Of a stretch of 64,000 nt of DNA, positions 24,007 to 53,526 are shown piece by piece. The notes below the pieces were generated by a model that was given only the letters and a program-made list of their open reading frames with translations, was not told the DNA's origin and searched no databases. Origin of the DNA: Lachnospiraceae bacterium. Its GTDB lineage: Bacteria; Bacillota; Clostridia; Lachnospirales; Lachnospiraceae. The position numbers and the translations under genes are program-made. How positions within the stretch are numbered: the first letter of the stretch is position 1; each line of letters opens with the position of its first letter. Where the stretch lies: positions 1-64,000 of the forward strand of contig JAFWWB010000078.1 in assembly GCA_017518185.1 (NCBI GenBank), given 5' to 3'.

Positions 24007-25179
24007 ATGAAAAGAATGATGACCGCCTTTCTCTGCAGCGCCCTGCTGCTCACTGCCTGCGCCGATGCGGCTCCTGCCGGGAGCAGCGTTTCAGACGGAC
24101 AGAGCGGAACACAGAGCGAAGAGCAGGCCGAAGATCAGGCTGAAATAAAGGGACTTAAGGACGTCTTTGCAGAGCACGGCATAAAGGCCGGCTGCTGTGT
24201 CTCAGGCTTTGCCATAAACAGCCGTAACATAGAGCCCATACTGCTTCAGCAGTTCAACAGCGTTACGGCGGAAAACTCCATGAAGCCGGATGCCATATTA
24301 AGCAAGGCAGACAGCCTTGCCGAAGGAACACTTGTCGTGAAATACGGCAGCGAGGCACAGTCCATCCTTGCCTGGGCCAAAGAAAACGGTCTCTCCATGA
24401 GAGGCCATACACTCATATGGTATAACCAGACACCGGACTGGATCTTCCATGAGGATTTCGATACACAGAAGCCCTTTGTGGGACGTGACGAAATGCTTTC
24501 CCGTATGGAGAGCCTGATAAAGGGAAATTTCGAAGAGCTTGACGCCCTCGGATATACGGATCTTTTCTATGCCTATGACGTAGTCAACGAAGGCTGGATG
24601 GAAGACGGCACCATGCGTAAGAACAACTGGTACGATATCATAGGTGAGGATTACATCTGGTATGCCTTTTATTACGCCGACAAATACGCGCCGGAGAGCA
24701 TAGACCTCTATTACAACGATTATAACGAACAGTACAAGGCTGACAGCTTATGCAGATTCGTTAATACCCTGGTGGATGAAGACGGAAGATATCTTATAGA
24801 CGGCATAGGCCTCCAGGCCCATCTCTTTACCGATGATGATCTTAACATCTACCTTAAAGGAGTGGATAAGCTGGCCACAACAGGACTTAAGCTTCAGGTG
24901 ACGGAGCTGGATCTGGGACTGGGCAGCTACGGCTCACCCAAGGAGCCTTCGGAGGACATGCTTAAAGAGCAGGGCCGCTACTACTACGAGCTGATAAACG
25001 GCCTGCTGGAGAGAGCCGATGCCGGCACCATCAATATGGATGCCATCGTTTTCTGGGGATTTTCGGATCTGACCTCATGGAGAGCAGAGTACTCTCCCAT
25101 GCTTTTCGACAAGACCTTTCAGCCCAAGTACGCATATTACGGGGCTGTGCAGGAAAAGGATAAAGCCGGATACGAATAG
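24007..25179 (+). CDS. GH10 endo-1,4-beta-xylanase lipoprotein
   Basis: Secreted 390-residue glycoside hydrolase family 10 enzyme that cleaves the beta-1,4-xylan backbone. Lipobox LTAC (Cys about 20) anchors it to the outside of the membrane. Family motifs are NSVTAENSMKP, RGHTLIWYNQTPDW, the acid/base Glu195 in YDVVNEGW and the nucleophile Glu300 in LQVTELDLG. The C-terminal VFWGFSDLTSWR is also typical. No carbohydrate-binding module is present. It lies 62 bases after the BMP-family gene on the same strand with a GAGGAAAA ribosome site, so it may be read through from that operon. The released xylose would feed the phosphoketolase pathway. Confidence 0.93.
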   Translation: MKRMMTAFLCSALLLTACADAAPAGSSVSDGQSGTQSEEQAEDQAEIKGLKDVFAEHGIKAGCCVSGFAINSRNIEPILLQQFNSVTAENSMKPDAILSKADSLAEGTLVVKYGSEAQSILAWAKENGLSMRGHTLIWYNQTPDWIFHEDFDTQKPFVGRDEMLSRMESLIKGNFEELDALGYTDLFYAYDVVNEGWMEDGTMRKNNWYDIIGEDYIWYAFYYADKYAPESIDLYYNDYNEQYKADSLCRFVNTLVDEDGRYLIDGIGLQAHLFTDDDLNIYLKGVDKLATTGLKLQVTELDLGLGSYGSPKEPSEDMLKEQGRYYYELINGLLERADAGTINMDAIVFWGFSDLTSWRAEYSPMLFDKTFQPKYAYYGAVQEKDKAGYE

Positions 25180-48421: not shown

Positions 48422-48463
48422 TGCTAAGCCACAGATTAAAACCTATGGCTTAGCATCTTTTTT
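48422..48463 (+). terminator. Rightward terminator at the left end of the IS
   Basis: 10-bp stem TGCTAAGCCA / TGGCTTAGCA, then TCTTTTTT on the plus strand. It overlaps the end of the transposase gene and would block outside transcription from reading antisense into it. Confidence 0.7.
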
Positions 48464-50151
48464 ATCTGTCCTGATGAAAGAAAATAGGATGTTAAGGGAA
48501 GACTCGTTTTCTTCGACAGCTCTTTTATCAGGGAGCTATTTCGTGTCAGGTTCATATACTTTCTATCCGAGATTTTTGCTACACGAAAATCTCGGATGAA
48601 CGAAAAGATCTCCTCAGAACAAAACCTGTTTTCAAGCACTTTGAATTGGAGCAGTCTTGTCAGAAGAACCGCAAGATAGCATATCAGGAAATGTCCTGTT
48701 ATGGTTTCTTCTCTTTGGAGATATACCGGGCGCGCATCCAACTCTGATTTCATGATCCTAAAGGATTCCTCGATTCTCCAAAGATTATGATAAGCTTTAT
48801 ATATTTCCTGATCCGACATCTTTAATTCTGACGTTACCAGCATGTTGTAGCCGGCAAGCTTGCGTGCATTTTCGATGGCCTCATCATTCAAAGTCACTTT
48901 TACTTTGCCATCGGTTTCTTTTCCCTTTTTGTCAGCAGAGACAAAATTTACAAATCTTGCGCACTCTCCATACTCTGATTTCTTTGCCTGTGACGTTCTT
49001 AAATTCTGTGCTTTTTCTATAAGTTTGTTTATTTCGTATAGCTGTTTTTTAGCAAGTGTTGGATTAAAAGTAACGACTCTTTTTTCGGTAAAGACCGCCT
49101 TCCTTTTTCGGCCTGATTTTTCATCATCGATCTCGTATTCAAAGTCGTCTATGCATTCCTTTATTTTATACAGGACATCACCGCTACTGTTTTTGATTTC
49201 CCGGTAATCATTTGGAAGCAGCACCCATACTTTTTCTTTTTCAGAGAGCGTTTTTACGGATCTGGAAAAAATATATCCATCCCCTTCTTTAAGTGCGTGC
49301 ATTATGTTATTGCCACAGTTCAAGCCTTTATCAGCGACCTGTATCGTTCTGCCGGAAATGTTGTTTCTTGTTTTCAGGCTGTCGATAACATCGCGCATCA
49401 CCGGCTTTTCGCTTTCGTTTCCCGGATAGAGTTTCATACCAATGGGTATCTGGTTTGCGTCCAAAAGAAGCCCCAACCCAACAAGAGGCTCGTGTCTGTT
49501 TTCCTTAGATGGACCTTTTCGCCTGAAATCATCCTCTCGGTCAATCTCAAAGTAGAAGTTGGTGCAGTCAAAGTATGTATGAGATGTATCGAACTTATAC
49601 TTCAGATTGACCTGATGATTATAGATTTCAATAACCTTTTCGTACTCCATACCGAGGTACTCTAAACCGGTATATATCTGATCGAGAGAGAAATCTGCAG
49701 ATTCGAATAGTTTTGGTATCACTTCATCATAGGTCTTTGATTTTGAACAGGGATGTACAATGTGGGAATAAACAAGAGCGGACATCATGTCAAAAACATT
49801 GAAGCGATAATCCGTAGCAGTCTGCATCAAATCAATGTATTGCTTGGTTCGCAGAGAATCATTCAGATTTTTTAAAGGAAAATATCCCAGGAACTTTTCC
49901 GGAGATTCATCAGAAATGGTTTTTGACTTATCAGCCGCTTTCTTTTCGTTATGCTGACGATTAAGTTCATCTACCTCGGACTGATAGTGTGATATGGGAT
50001 CATCGATGCCTCCGGACACCAACTCGTGAACATAACCTATAGGTTTAAAAGAACGGTGAGCTCCACCTTTACGTTCCGGATCATAATAACTCTCGTAAAT
50101 CTGAAGATAAGTGCCTTTTTTGTTATTGGTCTTTTTTAAGAAATATGCCAT
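48436..50151 (-). CDS. IS1634-family transposase
   Basis: 571 residues of the IS4-superfamily DDE type. It begins AYFLKKTNNKKGTYLQIYES and has RSFKPIGYVHEL, the catalytic-core Asp in VADKGLNCGNN, and the C-terminal WRIEESFRIMKSELDARPVYL-like region (shown here only in part) that carries the conserved Glu. Full length, no stop inside, so it may be active. The start at 50151 (MAYFL) is preferred over upstream codons. A palindrome-rich stretch (TATAGCGCTATA near 50170) precedes it. Confidence 0.9.
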   Translation of the reverse strand: MAYFLKKTNNKKGTYLQIYESYYDPERKGGAHRSFKPIGYVHELVSGGIDDPISHYQSEVDELNRQHNEKKAADKSKTISDESPEKFLGYFPLKNLNDSLRTKQYIDLMQTATDYRFNVFDMMSALVYSHIVHPCSKSKTYDEVIPKLFESADFSLDQIYTGLEYLGMEYEKVIEIYNHQVNLKYKFDTSHTYFDCTNFYFEIDREDDFRRKGPSKENRHEPLVGLGLLLDANQIPIGMKLYPGNESEKPVMRDVIDSLKTRNNISGRTIQVADKGLNCGNNIMHALKEGDGYIFSRSVKTLSEKEKVWVLLPNDYREIKNSSGDVLYKIKECIDDFEYEIDDEKSGRKRKAVFTEKRVVTFNPTLAKKQLYEINKLIEKAQNLRTSQAKKSEYGECARFVNFVSADKKGKETDGKVKVTLNDEAIENARKLAGYNMLVTSELKMSDQEIYKAYHNLWRIEESFRIMKSELDARPVYLQREETITGHFLICYLAVLLTRLLQFKVLENRFCSEEIFSFIRDFRVAKISDRKYMNLTRNSSLIKELSKKTSLPLTSYFLSSGQIKKMLSHRF

Positions 50152-50320
50152 AAAAATCACCCTTCCCTATTATAGCGCTATAGCACTATATAGTAAAGAG
50201 CAAATAAAAAGTTTTGTCAAGTTTTTTGGGCACAAGAAAAAGCCAGCAAATATGCTGACTTAACCGGAATAGCAGGTCTGCTAACCCCTAAAGAATTATA
50301 GTGCTAAATCCTAAAGACGG

Positions 50321-50476
50321 GAACTTGTGTAATTCAAGCACAATTATATGAACGTATTTATCCTTCCAGTTCCAGTGACACTTCGACAGGAAGGATCCGG
50401 CGCAATATACGACGAAACGAATATACAGAACAAATAAGTATTTGCCGTTTGCCATATTTCCACAACTGTGCTAAAA
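50321..50476 (+). repeat. Right copy of IS target duplication
   Basis: 156-base direct copy of 48207-48380, contiguous with the GGDEF gene's own promoter and leader, so this is the original context of that gene. It contains an 8-bp inverted repeat ATCCTTCC/GGAAGGAT enclosing the hexamer repeat. Confidence 0.85.
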
Positions 50477-50477
50477 T
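50449..50477 (+). promoter_or_regulatory. Promoter of the GGDEF/HD-GYP/DctP operon
   Basis: TTGCCA (50449-50454), 17-base spacer, TAAAAT (50472-50477), about 38 bases before the ATG at 50516, with AGGAGG in the leader. Confidence 0.65.
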
Positions 50478-50515: not shown

Positions 50516-51742
50516 ATGAATTCTGCTTCATTTATTTACTACGGTTATGACAGGGATACCTATCGTGACTGCAAGCCTCAGATAGATGGGATGAACCTGA
50601 AGCACATGGTCTTCATGAACACCTGGCTGCTGGTGGTGACGATAATAATCCTCGGTATAAGGATTTACGACAGTTCCGCGGTATCAAGCATCTTTGTTAA
50701 ATTCAACATGAACGGCCTGGACCGTGTGGGGCTGCCTGTTTTTATCGTGTTTGCCGTGCTGGCAGCCCTTCTGGAGGTCCTGATAGCGGTCTTCAGAAAG
50801 CATCCGGCATGGCCTTTCCAGATACTTGTCTACATGGATATCATGCTGATGATAGCCTTCAGCTTACTGCTCTCGATGGCGCAGAACCTGAAGCCCGCCG
50901 TGCTCTTCCCGGCTCTGCTGGTGCTGATCTCGGTTTCCTATATCGACAACATGATAAGCATGGGCGTGGTCATGTGCGGCCTGTCAGCGTGCTTTCTTCT
51001 GGGAGTGTTTAAGGGCTTCCCGGCCATGAGATTCCAGCCAAAGCCCCCTTCAATAGCAAACGAGGATGTGTTCAGCATGGTGCTCTTCCTGAGCCTTTCA
51101 CTGGTGCTCCATTACACCAGACAGCGCACCCGCCTTCAGCAGTTTGTCACCTACCTTAAGAATATACAGATAACCCGTGAGCTGGAAGAGAAATCCAGCT
51201 TTGATATGCTGACCTCTCTCCTGAACCGCGGCCGTTTTATGACCATGGCCGGAGAGGTTCTGCGGGGCGAGCATGACCACGAATACATGGCCATCTGCCT
51301 CCTGGATCTGGACAGCTTCAAACAGATCAATGACAAGCTGGGACATCAGATGGGCGACAAGGCCCTGCAGATAACCGGACGTACCATCATAGAGCAGCTG
51401 GGCGGCGAACAGAGCGAGCGCTGGTCCTTCCCCGAAAGGGCCCTGAAGGAGCGTCTCAGCTTTGCCGGCCGTCTCGGAGGAGATGAGTTCATAGTATTCT
51501 TCCGTTCCGAGAAGAACAAGGAAGAGCTCTTCAAACACCTGAAGAGCCTGCTGACTGCGCTGAACTGCGTGGATTTCGGTGACCTTCACGGTATACACTC
51601 CTCCTTTGGAGTCACCGAGATCACGGCTGCAGATCACGATATAGACAGGGTTTATAACCGGGCGGATGACGCTCTCTACCGCTCAAAACGCGCCGGTAAG
51701 AACCGTATTACCTTTGATGGTGAAAAGGAAAGCAGATCATGA
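50516..51742 (+). CDS. Membrane diguanylate cyclase (GGDEF)
   Basis: 408 residues: about six membrane helices in residues 35-205, then a GGDEF domain (about 225-400) with FDMLTSLLNRGRF at its start, LLDLDSFKQINDKLGHQMGD and an intact RLGGDEFIVFF active-site loop. An insertion of about 20 residues precedes the active-site loop, and no RxxD inhibitory site is visible 5 residues upstream. It should make c-di-GMP. The stop overlaps the next ORF's start (ATGA). Confidence 0.92.
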   Translation: MNSASFIYYGYDRDTYRDCKPQIDGMNLKHMVFMNTWLLVVTIIILGIRIYDSSAVSSIFVKFNMNGLDRVGLPVFIVFAVLAALLEVLIAVFRKHPAWPFQILVYMDIMLMIAFSLLLSMAQNLKPAVLFPALLVLISVSYIDNMISMGVVMCGLSACFLLGVFKGFPAMRFQPKPPSIANEDVFSMVLFLSLSLVLHYTRQRTRLQQFVTYLKNIQITRELEEKSSFDMLTSLLNRGRFMTMAGEVLRGEHDHEYMAICLLDLDSFKQINDKLGHQMGDKALQITGRTIIEQLGGEQSERWSFPERALKERLSFAGRLGGDEFIVFFRSEKNKEELFKHLKSLLTALNCVDFGDLHGIHSSFGVTEITAADHDIDRVYNRADDALYRSKRAGKNRITFDGEKESRS

Positions 51743-52458
51743 ATGTACCCTATGCTTTATTTATCTGTGTAACTTCAGCATTACTGCTGGTCATAGTGCT
51801 GCTGCTGATCCGGCTCAAAAAAGTCCGAAAAAGGGAGACCTGCGTGCTTGCCATGGTGACAGGCTGTACCGAAGCCGGTGACCCCAGCCTTGACGGACAT
51901 TCACTTAACGTGATGTTCCTTACCATGCTGCTCTATGATTTTCTCCCTACAGAGTACAGGATAAAGCTGGACCGTGAGAAGCTCATGTTTGCATCTCTTC
52001 TCTTGGATCTCGGGAAGAAGAGCATACCCTCTTCTATCCGCAACAAGTCGGGAAAGCTTACGGATAAGGAGTGGAAGCTTATGAGGCAGCACCCTGAGAT
52101 AGGGAGCAGGATAATCGCCTCCGTACCTTCCCTTAAGGGAGTGGGCGATCTTGTGCTCTATCATCACGAGCGTGTTGACGGCGGCGGATATCACAAGCTC
52201 AAGGGTGAAGAGATCCCCCTTGCTTCGAGGGTGATAGCGGTGACCGATACTTTTTCCGCTATCACGATGATACGGCCCTACAGGCCTTCCCTTCCCTACG
52301 AGGAGGCCATACAGGAACTGAAGCTGGCAGCAGGTACACAGCTGGACAGCGAGCTGGTGAAATATTTCTGTGAGATCCCGCCCAAGCGCGTAAACGAATG
52401 TCTGGAGACCGTTAAGAAAATGATGGAATGCTATTCGCATGAGCGGATAAAGGAATAA
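51739..52458 (+). CDS. HD-GYP-like protein with degenerate active site
   Basis: 239 residues: one N-terminal membrane helix (about 5-27), then an HD-GYP domain. The HD motif reads LLLDLGKKSIP, where active enzymes have a His before the Asp, so the metal-binding histidine is replaced by Leu. The GYP region reads HHERVDGGGYH, with the Pro lost as well. A fold-intact but probably inactive phosphodiesterase, perhaps a c-di-GMP receptor or a partner of the GGDEF protein encoded by the overlapping upstream gene. DctP follows 14 bases later. Confidence 0.85.
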   Translation: MNVPYALFICVTSALLLVIVLLLIRLKKVRKRETCVLAMVTGCTEAGDPSLDGHSLNVMFLTMLLYDFLPTEYRIKLDREKLMFASLLLDLGKKSIPSSIRNKSGKLTDKEWKLMRQHPEIGSRIIASVPSLKGVGDLVLYHHERVDGGGYHKLKGEEIPLASRVIAVTDTFSAITMIRPYRPSLPYEEAIQELKLAAGTQLDSELVKYFCEIPPKRVNECLETVKKMMECYSHERIKE

Positions 52459-52472
52459 GGAGGCAGAAGATC

Positions 52473-53477
52473 ATGAAGAAGAAAACACTCTTTACCGTCG
52501 GGCTGGCAGCCGTGCTGGCTTCCGCATCCCTGGCAGGCTGCGGGGGGAACAGCTCCGGCGGCCCCATCGAGCTCAAGATAGGAGTATCCACCGGAGAGAG
52601 CGATCCCCGTAATATAGCGGCAAAGGCTTTTGCAGACGAGATCGCAGAAAAGACAGGCGGACAGGTTACCGCAGTGGTCTACCCTTCGGGAGAACTGGGA
52701 GGCGACAGCGACATGATAGACGCTCTTTCCATGGGAAACGGCAAGATCGACATCGTCATCTCGGATGCTTCCAACTTCTCACCTTACGAGCCTACTATGG
52801 GCATTTCCGCCATGCCCTTCCTCTTCGATGATTTTGACACGGCCTGGGCTTTCATGGACAGCGATATAGAGGCGGCCGCTGAGGAGAAGCTCATAGCGTC
52901 CAACATCCGCGTCCTGGCCCATTATGATAACGGCTTCCGCTGTGTCACCAATTCCATAGGCCCGGTGAATTCACCTGCGGATATGAACGGCCTGCTGATA
53001 CGCACGCCCGAGAATCCCATTATCATGGCTACCATGGATGCCCTCGGCGCAAACGCGCAGCCCCTGGCTTTTTCCGAGCTTTACGAAGCACTTAAGCAGG
53101 GCACTTACGATGCACAGGAAAATCCCATCCCCGTCATTTATAACAACAAGCTTTACGAGGTACAGAAATACCTCTCCGTTACCAACCACATTTATTCCGG
53201 CATGTGCTTCGCAATATCCGAGAATACCTGGAAGAAGCTTACTCCCGAGCAGCAGGAGATCGTAAAAGCTGCGGCTGAAAGCTCCGCAAAGTCGGACCGC
53301 GAGAGCAACAGACAACAGACCGAGGATCTGATAAGCAAGCTGGAAGAAGCCGGAATGATAATCAATTATCCTGATCTGGAGCCCTTCGCCCAGGCCACCT
53401 CTTCGGTGCTGAGCAATAATTCCTCCACCTACGGGGATATGATAGACAGGCTTACAAAATGGCAGGCAGAACACTGA
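52473..53477 (+). CDS. Orphan DctP-type TRAP binding protein (lipoprotein)
   Basis: 334 residues, lipobox LAGC (Cys about 23). DctP family pattern: KIGVSTGESDPRNIAAKAFA, YPSGELGGDSDMIDAL, then RTPENPIIMATMDALGANAQPL and AQENPIPVIYNNKLYEVQKYL. Family members bind carboxylates or other small acids; the Arg in LLIRTPE is the usual carboxylate contact. There is no DctQ/DctM membrane component nearby; a terminator follows directly. It is the third gene of the GGDEF operon with AAGGAGG as ribosome site. Confidence 0.92.
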   Translation: MKKKTLFTVGLAAVLASASLAGCGGNSSGGPIELKIGVSTGESDPRNIAAKAFADEIAEKTGGQVTAVVYPSGELGGDSDMIDALSMGNGKIDIVISDASNFSPYEPTMGISAMPFLFDDFDTAWAFMDSDIEAAAEEKLIASNIRVLAHYDNGFRCVTNSIGPVNSPADMNGLLIRTPENPIIMATMDALGANAQPLAFSELYEALKQGTYDAQENPIPVIYNNKLYEVQKYLSVTNHIYSGMCFAISENTWKKLTPEQQEIVKAAAESSAKSDRESNRQQTEDLISKLEEAGMIINYPDLEPFAQATSSVLSNNSSTYGDMIDRLTKWQAEH

Positions 53478-53492
53478 AACACTTAGAAAAAC

Positions 53493-53526
53493 GCCCCCGG
53501 AGATGATCCGGGGGCATAATTTTTTT
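53493..53526 (+). terminator. Terminator of the GGDEF/HD-GYP/DctP operon
   Basis: Perfect stem GCCCCCGG / CCGGGGGC, loop AGATGAT, followed by ATAATTTTTTT. Confidence 0.9.

Follow-up and report, generated by a model that had tools for sequence, protein, structure and literature searches.

Why should the solute-binding protein of a tripartite ATP-independent periplasmic (TRAP) transporter be encoded together with enzymes of cyclic di-GMP (c-di-GMP) turnover? The question is raised by a 64,000-nucleotide stretch of a Lachnospiraceae bacterium genome (assembly GCA_017518185.1, contig JAFWWB010000078.1, positions 1 to 64,000; hereafter the window), in which the genes of a GGDEF protein, a degenerate HD-GYP protein and a DctP binding protein follow one another on the forward strand. 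The answer we favour, and consider probable, is that this operon is a ligand-sensing c-di-GMP switch in which loaded DctP would signal to the GGDEF protein and would feed no transporter. It is carried by three observations: the genome lacks DctM, the operon is conserved, and the binding protein is swapped in some relatives. The docking of DctP on the GGDEF protein, the sign of its effect, the ligand and the role of the HD protein are what we infer from them.

A first, sequence-only reading of the window had described the three genes as one terminated operon devoid of TRAP membrane subunits, and the open reading frames (ORFs), the Pfam matches and the terminator agree with that description (Table 1). 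The HD gene overlaps the end of the GGDEF gene by 4 bp, and a gap of 14 bases separates it from dctP, whose ATG is preceded by GGAGG. The Pfam E-values are 8.3e-26 for GGDEF (in two stretches), 1.7e-28 for HD_5 and 3.1e-85 for DctP, the DctP protein lying also above the cut-offs of TIGR00787 and NF037995. Terminator-like sites number 16 against 6.8 expected in shuffles; promoter-like sites number 13 against 9.6, which makes the promoter call weak. The operon is not a chance neighbourhood, because the same architecture was found in 20 further loci.

These loci belong to a set of 102 DctP rows (the window, its relatives and added regions) sorted into classes by their neighbour genes; the 79 related loci were found via peptide patterns of the window DctP and the added regions were hand-picked, so that the class frequencies are biased. 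The nearest named relatives are Lachnospiraceae. Class A, the window type, comprises 22 rows representing 21 distinct loci, the window included (L159 repeats L066; among the full set of rows, L177 also repeats L105). The order is GGDEF-HD-DctP in 17 of them, GGDEF-DctP without HD in three (L078, L095, L161) and HD-DctP-SBP_bac_1 in one (L181), and the genes overlap or lie, by the listed ORF ends, at most about 150 bases apart. No DctM occurs in the stretches read around the 21 loci, three of which end at or inside DctP (less than 200 bases after it in L063 and L069, inside the gene in L095). L161 (G053:C2, 1517-7425, minus strand) has a GGDEF gene, the gene of a very divergent DctP without the pocket residues R177 and N217, and then a gene for a 1196-amino-acid (aa) fusion of amino-acid permease, PAS and GGDEF. 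A different GGDEF protein immediately precedes DctP in the 11 rows of class B; the two that were Pfam-scanned (L107, L129) combine PAS-GGDEF with dCache, over the cut-off in L129 and below it in L107. In class C (11 rows, two identical; L106 Pfam-scanned) DctP adjoins a hybrid histidine kinase. The 36 rows of class D are DctPQM. The remaining rows have neither partner (12) or lie near a stretch end (10).

By gene content, the enzyme pair is constant and the binding protein is the exchangeable piece, since the GGDEF-HD pair carries an SBP_bac_1 protein in two loci and a third locus has both kinds. In L123, from a Treponema metagenome-assembled genome, the pair is followed by the SBP_bac_1 protein (PF01547, 5.9e-23), and the same stretch has a DctP of class B accompanied by a GGDEF gene of its own; in L160 (genome G112, no DctP match) the order is SBP_bac_1, GGDEF, HD; and in L181 HD, DctP and SBP_bac_1 stand together, a GGDEF relative being found at the end of another contig (L162). 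A tree of 98 rows (those shorter than 290 aa, L095, L099, L100 and L138, were left out of it and of the residue counts) contains a 33-row clade that unites classes B and C (99/93) and includes no D row, class A falling in a separate clade among D rows; given its starred branches, the D label must have changed three times or more. The tree, which is unrooted, has many open forks in its class A part and several long branches that make deep placements unsure, is consistent with two or more recruitments to signalling, or with losses.

Which protein would receive the signal of DctP? The first 222 residues of the GGDEF protein form about six hydrophobic segments joined by short loops, and the GGDEF domain that follows has an intact signature, invariant in 18 of 18 aligned rows, L123 among them. 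An insert ahead of this motif splits the Pfam match and is shared by most relatives. In cyclases, RxxD is the usual I-site motif of product inhibition; the alignment has no RxxD at the I-site position of this protein, which is therefore likely a cyclase without the usual product inhibition. Twelve residues of its first 222 are invariant and six of these (G67, S120, A128, K176, S179, D184) lie in non-hydrophobic stretches; alternation from a cytoplasmic N-terminus would place these stretches outside, this view of the membrane part resting on hydropathy and alignment. No Cache domain was matched in the protein by the Pfam scan.

The HD protein of the window has a single N-terminal hydrophobic segment, a Leu in place of the His of the HD pair, and GYH in place of GYP. 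Called degenerate by the sequence-only reading, it belongs to a family of which the same is true: the His is retained in 1 of 17 rows and the Asp in 17, and GYP has become GYY in 14 rows and GYH in three, being intact in none. H54, D90, K93, H118, H142, H143 and D170 are nonetheless retained in 16 or 17 of the 17 rows, and the profile matches are HD-GYP structures, for example 5z7c and 4mcw. This would be a phosphodiesterase of little or no activity, perhaps still able to bind a metal and c-di-GMP. Might this protein, and not the GGDEF protein, be what DctP mainly acts on? Its gene lies between those of the two others and immediately precedes dctP in 17 of the 21 loci; in many relatives its N-terminal membrane region is longer; L181 has no GGDEF gene beside its HD-DctP-SBP_bac_1 cluster; and nine of the 17 aligned HD proteins (L066, L069, L071, L073, L076, L077, L081, L084 and L123; counted by eye) bear an extra N-terminal region of about 100 residues, missing in the window protein. 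The three GGDEF-DctP loci without HD and the lone hydrophobic segment of the window protein speak on the other side, and we regard an HD receptor as unlikely.

A different possibility is that DctP still transports. Its partner would then be DctQM or some other permease from another place in the genome, and the operon would do no more than tie the expression of dctP to the c-di-GMP enzymes. The genome (G000; 99.77% complete, 92 contigs) contains one DctP, the window's own, in a PF03480 search, and no DctM (PF06808, 0 matches; DctQ, PF04290, was not searched for genome-wide). The idea that this DctP serves a DctM of the same genome is thus rejected, and the first result that the sequence-only reading had named as refuting its view, dctQM or ABC genes elsewhere shown to use these binding proteins, did not turn up, as far as DctM is concerned. 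Across 397 genomes of the family, DctP was matched in 160 and DctM in 204 (E <= 0.001); among the 160, DctM went unmatched in 12 (G000, G002, G022, G029, G081, G196, G210, G240, G265, G307, G344, G357). The DctP surroundings in seven of these twelve are class A in G000 and G307, a hybrid histidine kinase adjoining DctP in G002, G240 and G357, a His_kinase protein in G210 and, in G081, a gene after DctP without Pfam match. The 18 genomes that carry class A loci, listed without completeness values, divide as follows: seven have no DctM match, two have weak matches alone (best E 2.6e-4 and 5.1e-6), four have as their best match frames of 642-734 aa, which by length we take to be TAXI-type, and five hold a DctM of classical length away from the operon.

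The DctP sequences themselves bear on the same possibility. The window protein has the lipobox LAGC with Cys23, a Cys shared by all 21 class A rows (L159 counted, L095 not); as a lipoprotein, DctP is accordingly expected at the outer membrane face. It also has the QENP motif and the carboxylate-binding Arg, R177, equivalent to R147 of HiSiaP, for which a role in carboxylate binding is described in a section of PMC4646407; the equivalences R177=R147, R156=R127, N217=N187, K91=S60 and E202=E172 were counted off the alignment. The pocket is preserved: R156 in 21/21 and R177 and N217 each in 20/21 class A rows (the exception being the divergent L161), all three in 11/11 rows of class B and 11/11 of class C, and R156 in 35/36, R177 in 36/36 and N217 in 36/36 rows of class D.

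The docking surface, by contrast, is changed at some positions. In HiSiaPQM, according to passages of PMC9352664, S60R and E172R each strongly reduce growth on sialic acid; docking is at background with E172R and slightly above it with S60R, ligand affinity remains wild-type-like for both, and the S60R effect is attributed to a positive patch of QM. A second paper indicates the same docking site in its relevant part (PMC9971032). Position 91, the S60 equivalent, is Lys (smaller than the Arg tested in S60R) in 20/21 class A versus 0/36 class D rows, 24 of the latter having Thr; position 208 is Gln in 31/36 class D rows (Lys in four, Ser in one) versus 1/21 of class A, 0/11 of B and 0/11 of C, the compared rows being related, so that Fisher values on such differences overstate significance. 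Position 202, the E172 equivalent, is Glu in 35/36 D rows and Lys in 6/11 C rows. Judged by alignment, class A DctP has kept its ligand pocket and is changed at the S60-equivalent TRAP docking residue. A transporting DctP accords with the retained pocket, with a Glu at position 202 and with the classical or long DctM frames of some relatives; it accords poorly with the genome of the window, which has no DctM, and with positions 91 and 208, and we judge it distinctly unlikely.

The 13 nearest class D rows share 61-70% identity with the window DctP. Three DctPQM relatives, L082, L184 and L196, have GntR-type regulators and a BKACE-like cleavage enzyme as neighbours, to which L184 and L196 add a class II aldolase-like enzyme, all below curated cut-offs; these neighbours may hint at the class of the DctP ligand, and they did not yield a ligand name.

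If DctP is a sensor, is it the only binding protein so used? The sequence-only reading had suggested a general design of this organism, in which transporter-type binding proteins serve c-di-GMP enzymes as sensors, and the genome supports it. There are 43 GGDEF and 16 HD_5 places, with 50 such genes outside the window. A hand count over five Pfam families, which leaves out SBP_bac_3 and other families, gives 20 binding-protein genes: one DctP, four of five BMP places, 11 SBP_bac_8, one of six Peripla_BP_4 places and three SBP_bac_5. The 20 do not include a BMP place on C72 (636 aa), which has no hydrophobic start, nor five Peripla_BP_4 places, of which two are GGDEF fusions, two belong to frames some 1100 aa long and one falls below the cut-off; C66:43881, whose gene is not delimitable, and an unusual 630-aa protein on C27 were kept. 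Peripla_BP_4-like domains joined to a GGDEF domain are seen in L210 (G000:C55, 4195-6153) and L205 (G000:C46, 4477-6411), both on the minus strand; these proteins have no evident signal peptide and look like cytoplasmic ligand-sensing cyclases.

Five of the 20 genes lie on the same strand as a c-di-GMP gene, less than 150 bases from it, with no permease recognised beside them. They are DctP and BMP in the window and three others. On C28 (L226, 3520-6695, minus strand) an SBP_bac_8 lipoprotein gene precedes a 4HB_MCP-GGDEF-EAL gene with a 4-base overlap, and the scanned neighbours (acyltransferase, esterase-like gene, aminotransferase) include no permease. On C26 (L216, 4139-6882, minus strand) a Peripla_BP_4 gene with a lipobox-like start precedes a GGDEF gene, again with a 4-base overlap, near an oxidoreductase gene and one for a membrane protein of 256 aa that has no match. 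On C72 (L200, 3589-8532, plus strand) two GGDEF genes come before an SBP_bac_5 lipoprotein gene; the further neighbours scanned are the gene of a sulfatase-like membrane protein, next in order, and an AAA gene. Between 0.3 and 0.4 pairings are expected (P = 1.4e-5 to 3.2e-5, binomial), and with both window loci omitted 3 of 18 genes remain paired (P = 0.0025-0.0042); these values are approximate, since they assume 2600-3100 genes and 50 neighbour slots (48 outside the window plus DctP and BMP). The enrichment, which the sequence-only reading had proposed as a check, concerns this one genome; in relatives it is the operon itself that is conserved. The design is moreover wider than was claimed, involving five classes of binding protein and, as partners, histidine kinases also: four more binding-protein genes adjoin such kinases (tandem BMPs on C10, SBP_bac_8 on C4 and C31), and the C27 protein, outside this count of four, is likewise beside kinase-like genes. 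The C10 locus (L242, 87-6628, minus strand) consists of two tandem BMP genes, the gene of a hybrid histidine kinase and two more that match the regulator portion of this kinase, and no BMP-type permease was found among its scanned neighbours. That the three genes of the operon function independently and share a promoter through common conditions of use, with no physical signalling, is very improbable: clusters can reflect co-regulation alone, but binding proteins are paired time and again with c-di-GMP enzymes and with kinases, the docking surface shows changes, and the binding protein is swapped on one GGDEF-HD pair.

The sensing role has to be weighed against several observations. Between its hydrophobic segments the GGDEF protein shows only short loops, and nothing like the large outer domain found in described receptors of signalling binding proteins. 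The conserved residues of its outer loops are not DctP-specific, because they are kept in L123, whose partner is SBP_bac_1. All 21 class A rows keep Glu at the second docking position, which corresponds to E172, and Lys at position 91 is found in just 4/11 class B and 1/11 class C rows. A working transporter can adjoin a c-di-GMP gene, as is seen on C72, where an EAL-GGDEF gene comes after a gene fusing SBP_bac_3 with a permease and after an ABC (ATP-binding cassette) ATPase-like gene. To these are added the DctM genes of relatives, of classical length in 5 of the 18 class A genomes and as long frames alone in four more, and the lack of a DctP in the two other sampled genomes of the window's genus.

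The mechanism that we propose for the ligand-sensing switch would run as follows. DctP, anchored outside the cell as a lipoprotein, would bind a ligand with a carboxylate group, which probably equals or resembles the ligand of the TRAP relatives that are 61-70% identical to it. DctP would feed no transporter, given a genome without DctM and a changed transporter-docking surface. In its ligand-loaded, closed form it would dock on the GGDEF protein, at the outer loops of the membrane region, and so alter the synthesis of c-di-GMP. With its damaged metal centre, the HD protein would be a regulatory partner or a c-di-GMP-binding brake and not a strong phosphodiesterase. With about even confidence we extend this to plug-in sensing in rumen Lachnospiraceae and Treponema: a module of multi-transmembrane GGDEF protein and pseudo-HD-GYP protein would take unrelated classes of binding protein as exchangeable outer sensors, and TRAP DctP would have passed from transport to signalling on two or more occasions, through a changed docking surface and with the ligand pocket kept.

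The second c-di-GMP locus that the sequence-only reading had placed at 19-24 kb, an HD-GYP gene with a BMP gene, is confirmed (Table 1). Its HD-GYP protein has HD and GYP intact and a membrane part resembling ECF-S/5TM (below family cut-offs); with an intact GGDEF in the operon, the idea that one locus makes the messenger and the other breaks it is plausible from the motifs. Directly downstream of the BMP gene lies, in place of a permease, a glycoside hydrolase family 10 (GH10) glycosidase gene (24007-25179, plus strand), which hints at a possible link between this module and the use of xylan. The pair of BMP and propeller-HD-GYP genes recurs in G357, about 1.5 kb from a pair of DctP and hybrid kinase (L182, G357:C15, 2416-11999, minus strand). 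About 350 bases upstream of the DctP operon is an IS1634-family transposase gene (48436-50160, minus strand; NF033559, 2.5e-98).

Table 1. Features of the DctP operon and of the companion HD-GYP/BMP locus, in window positions.
Feature	Position	Strand	Basis or remark
Promoter-like site, TTGCCA-17-TAAAAT, TG before second hexamer	50449..50477	+	Consensus match alone
GGDEF protein gene, 408 aa	50516..51742	+	ORF list, Pfam GGDEF
Degenerate HD-GYP protein gene, 239 aa	51739..52458	+	ORF list, Pfam HD_5
DctP (solute-binding protein family 7) lipoprotein gene, 334 aa	52473..53477	+	ORF list, Pfam DctP
Intrinsic terminator (strong stem-loop) at operon end	53493..53515	+	Minus strand also scored, 53517-53491
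HD-GYP protein gene, 1219 aa	19095..22754	+	Membrane part, Reg_prop beta-propeller, HD-GYP domain
BMP/PnrA-like binding protein gene, 397 aa	22751..23944	+	4-bp overlap with HD-GYP gene

The outside signals that control c-di-GMP are mostly unknown, and the operon offers separate binding proteins, of DctP type and others, as their inputs; the ligand could be sought by binding to the soluble protein rather than to the membrane enzyme. The NCBIfam names matched by the window DctP are transporter names, and Lys at the S60 position together with loss of Gln208 is a candidate signature that may separate this signalling class from transport DctP in annotation. The open-licence PMC literature, judged mostly from titles and abstracts, gave no pairing of DctP with a GGDEF partner, and an earlier description is possible.

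How does the operon compare with known systems? With the DctPQM TRAP transporters such as HiSiaPQM it shares the DctP family, the carboxylate-binding Arg and the QENP motif, and it differs from them by the absence of DctM from the genome and by the changed S60-equivalent residue. In the three-component system XylFII-LytS of Clostridia, a second binding protein reportedly acts with a membrane signal protein. Similarly, in CuaD-CuaSR, also of Clostridia, the second binding protein CuaD binds the membrane signal protein CuaS, as stated in a part of PMC10384115. Both systems drive histidine kinases, whereas our operon encodes c-di-GMP enzymes; the class C loci, with DctP and hybrid kinase, are nearer to them than the window operon is. 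BctC-BctE of the Bordetella tripartite tricarboxylate transporter (TTT) is another case of a binding protein of a secondary-transporter class used in signalling, differing in that BctC still serves its transporter, belongs to the TctC family and not to DctP, and acts on a kinase and not on c-di-GMP (excerpt of PMC5812351).

NspS-MbaA, the polyamine sensor of Vibrio cholerae, has the gene of a signalling binding protein directly beside that of a membrane c-di-GMP enzyme; MbaA, in the account given in a portion of PMC8079147, consists of a periplasmic domain, GGDEF and EAL, whereas here the GGDEF protein has short loops only, the degenerate HD protein is encoded separately and the binding protein is a DctP lipoprotein of TRAP type. 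In the L-arginine pathway of Salmonella, ArtI-STM1987, a GGDEF protein likewise needs a binding protein to answer an outside nutrient; STM1987 requires its dCache domain, as passages of PMC8846402 report, while the partner here has no Cache match and the genome no DctM. That 2022 review, in the part concerned, gives SBP_bac_3 as the sole studied domain of the periplasmic-binding-protein clan in c-di-GMP proteins. The action of binding proteins on chemoreceptors, kinases and c-di-GMP enzymes is established, as sections of PMC9602780, PMC8079147 and PMC8846402 describe. Binding-protein-driven c-di-GMP enzymes are known; what sets this operon apart is the TRAP-type sensor, the swap of partner and the altered docking surface.

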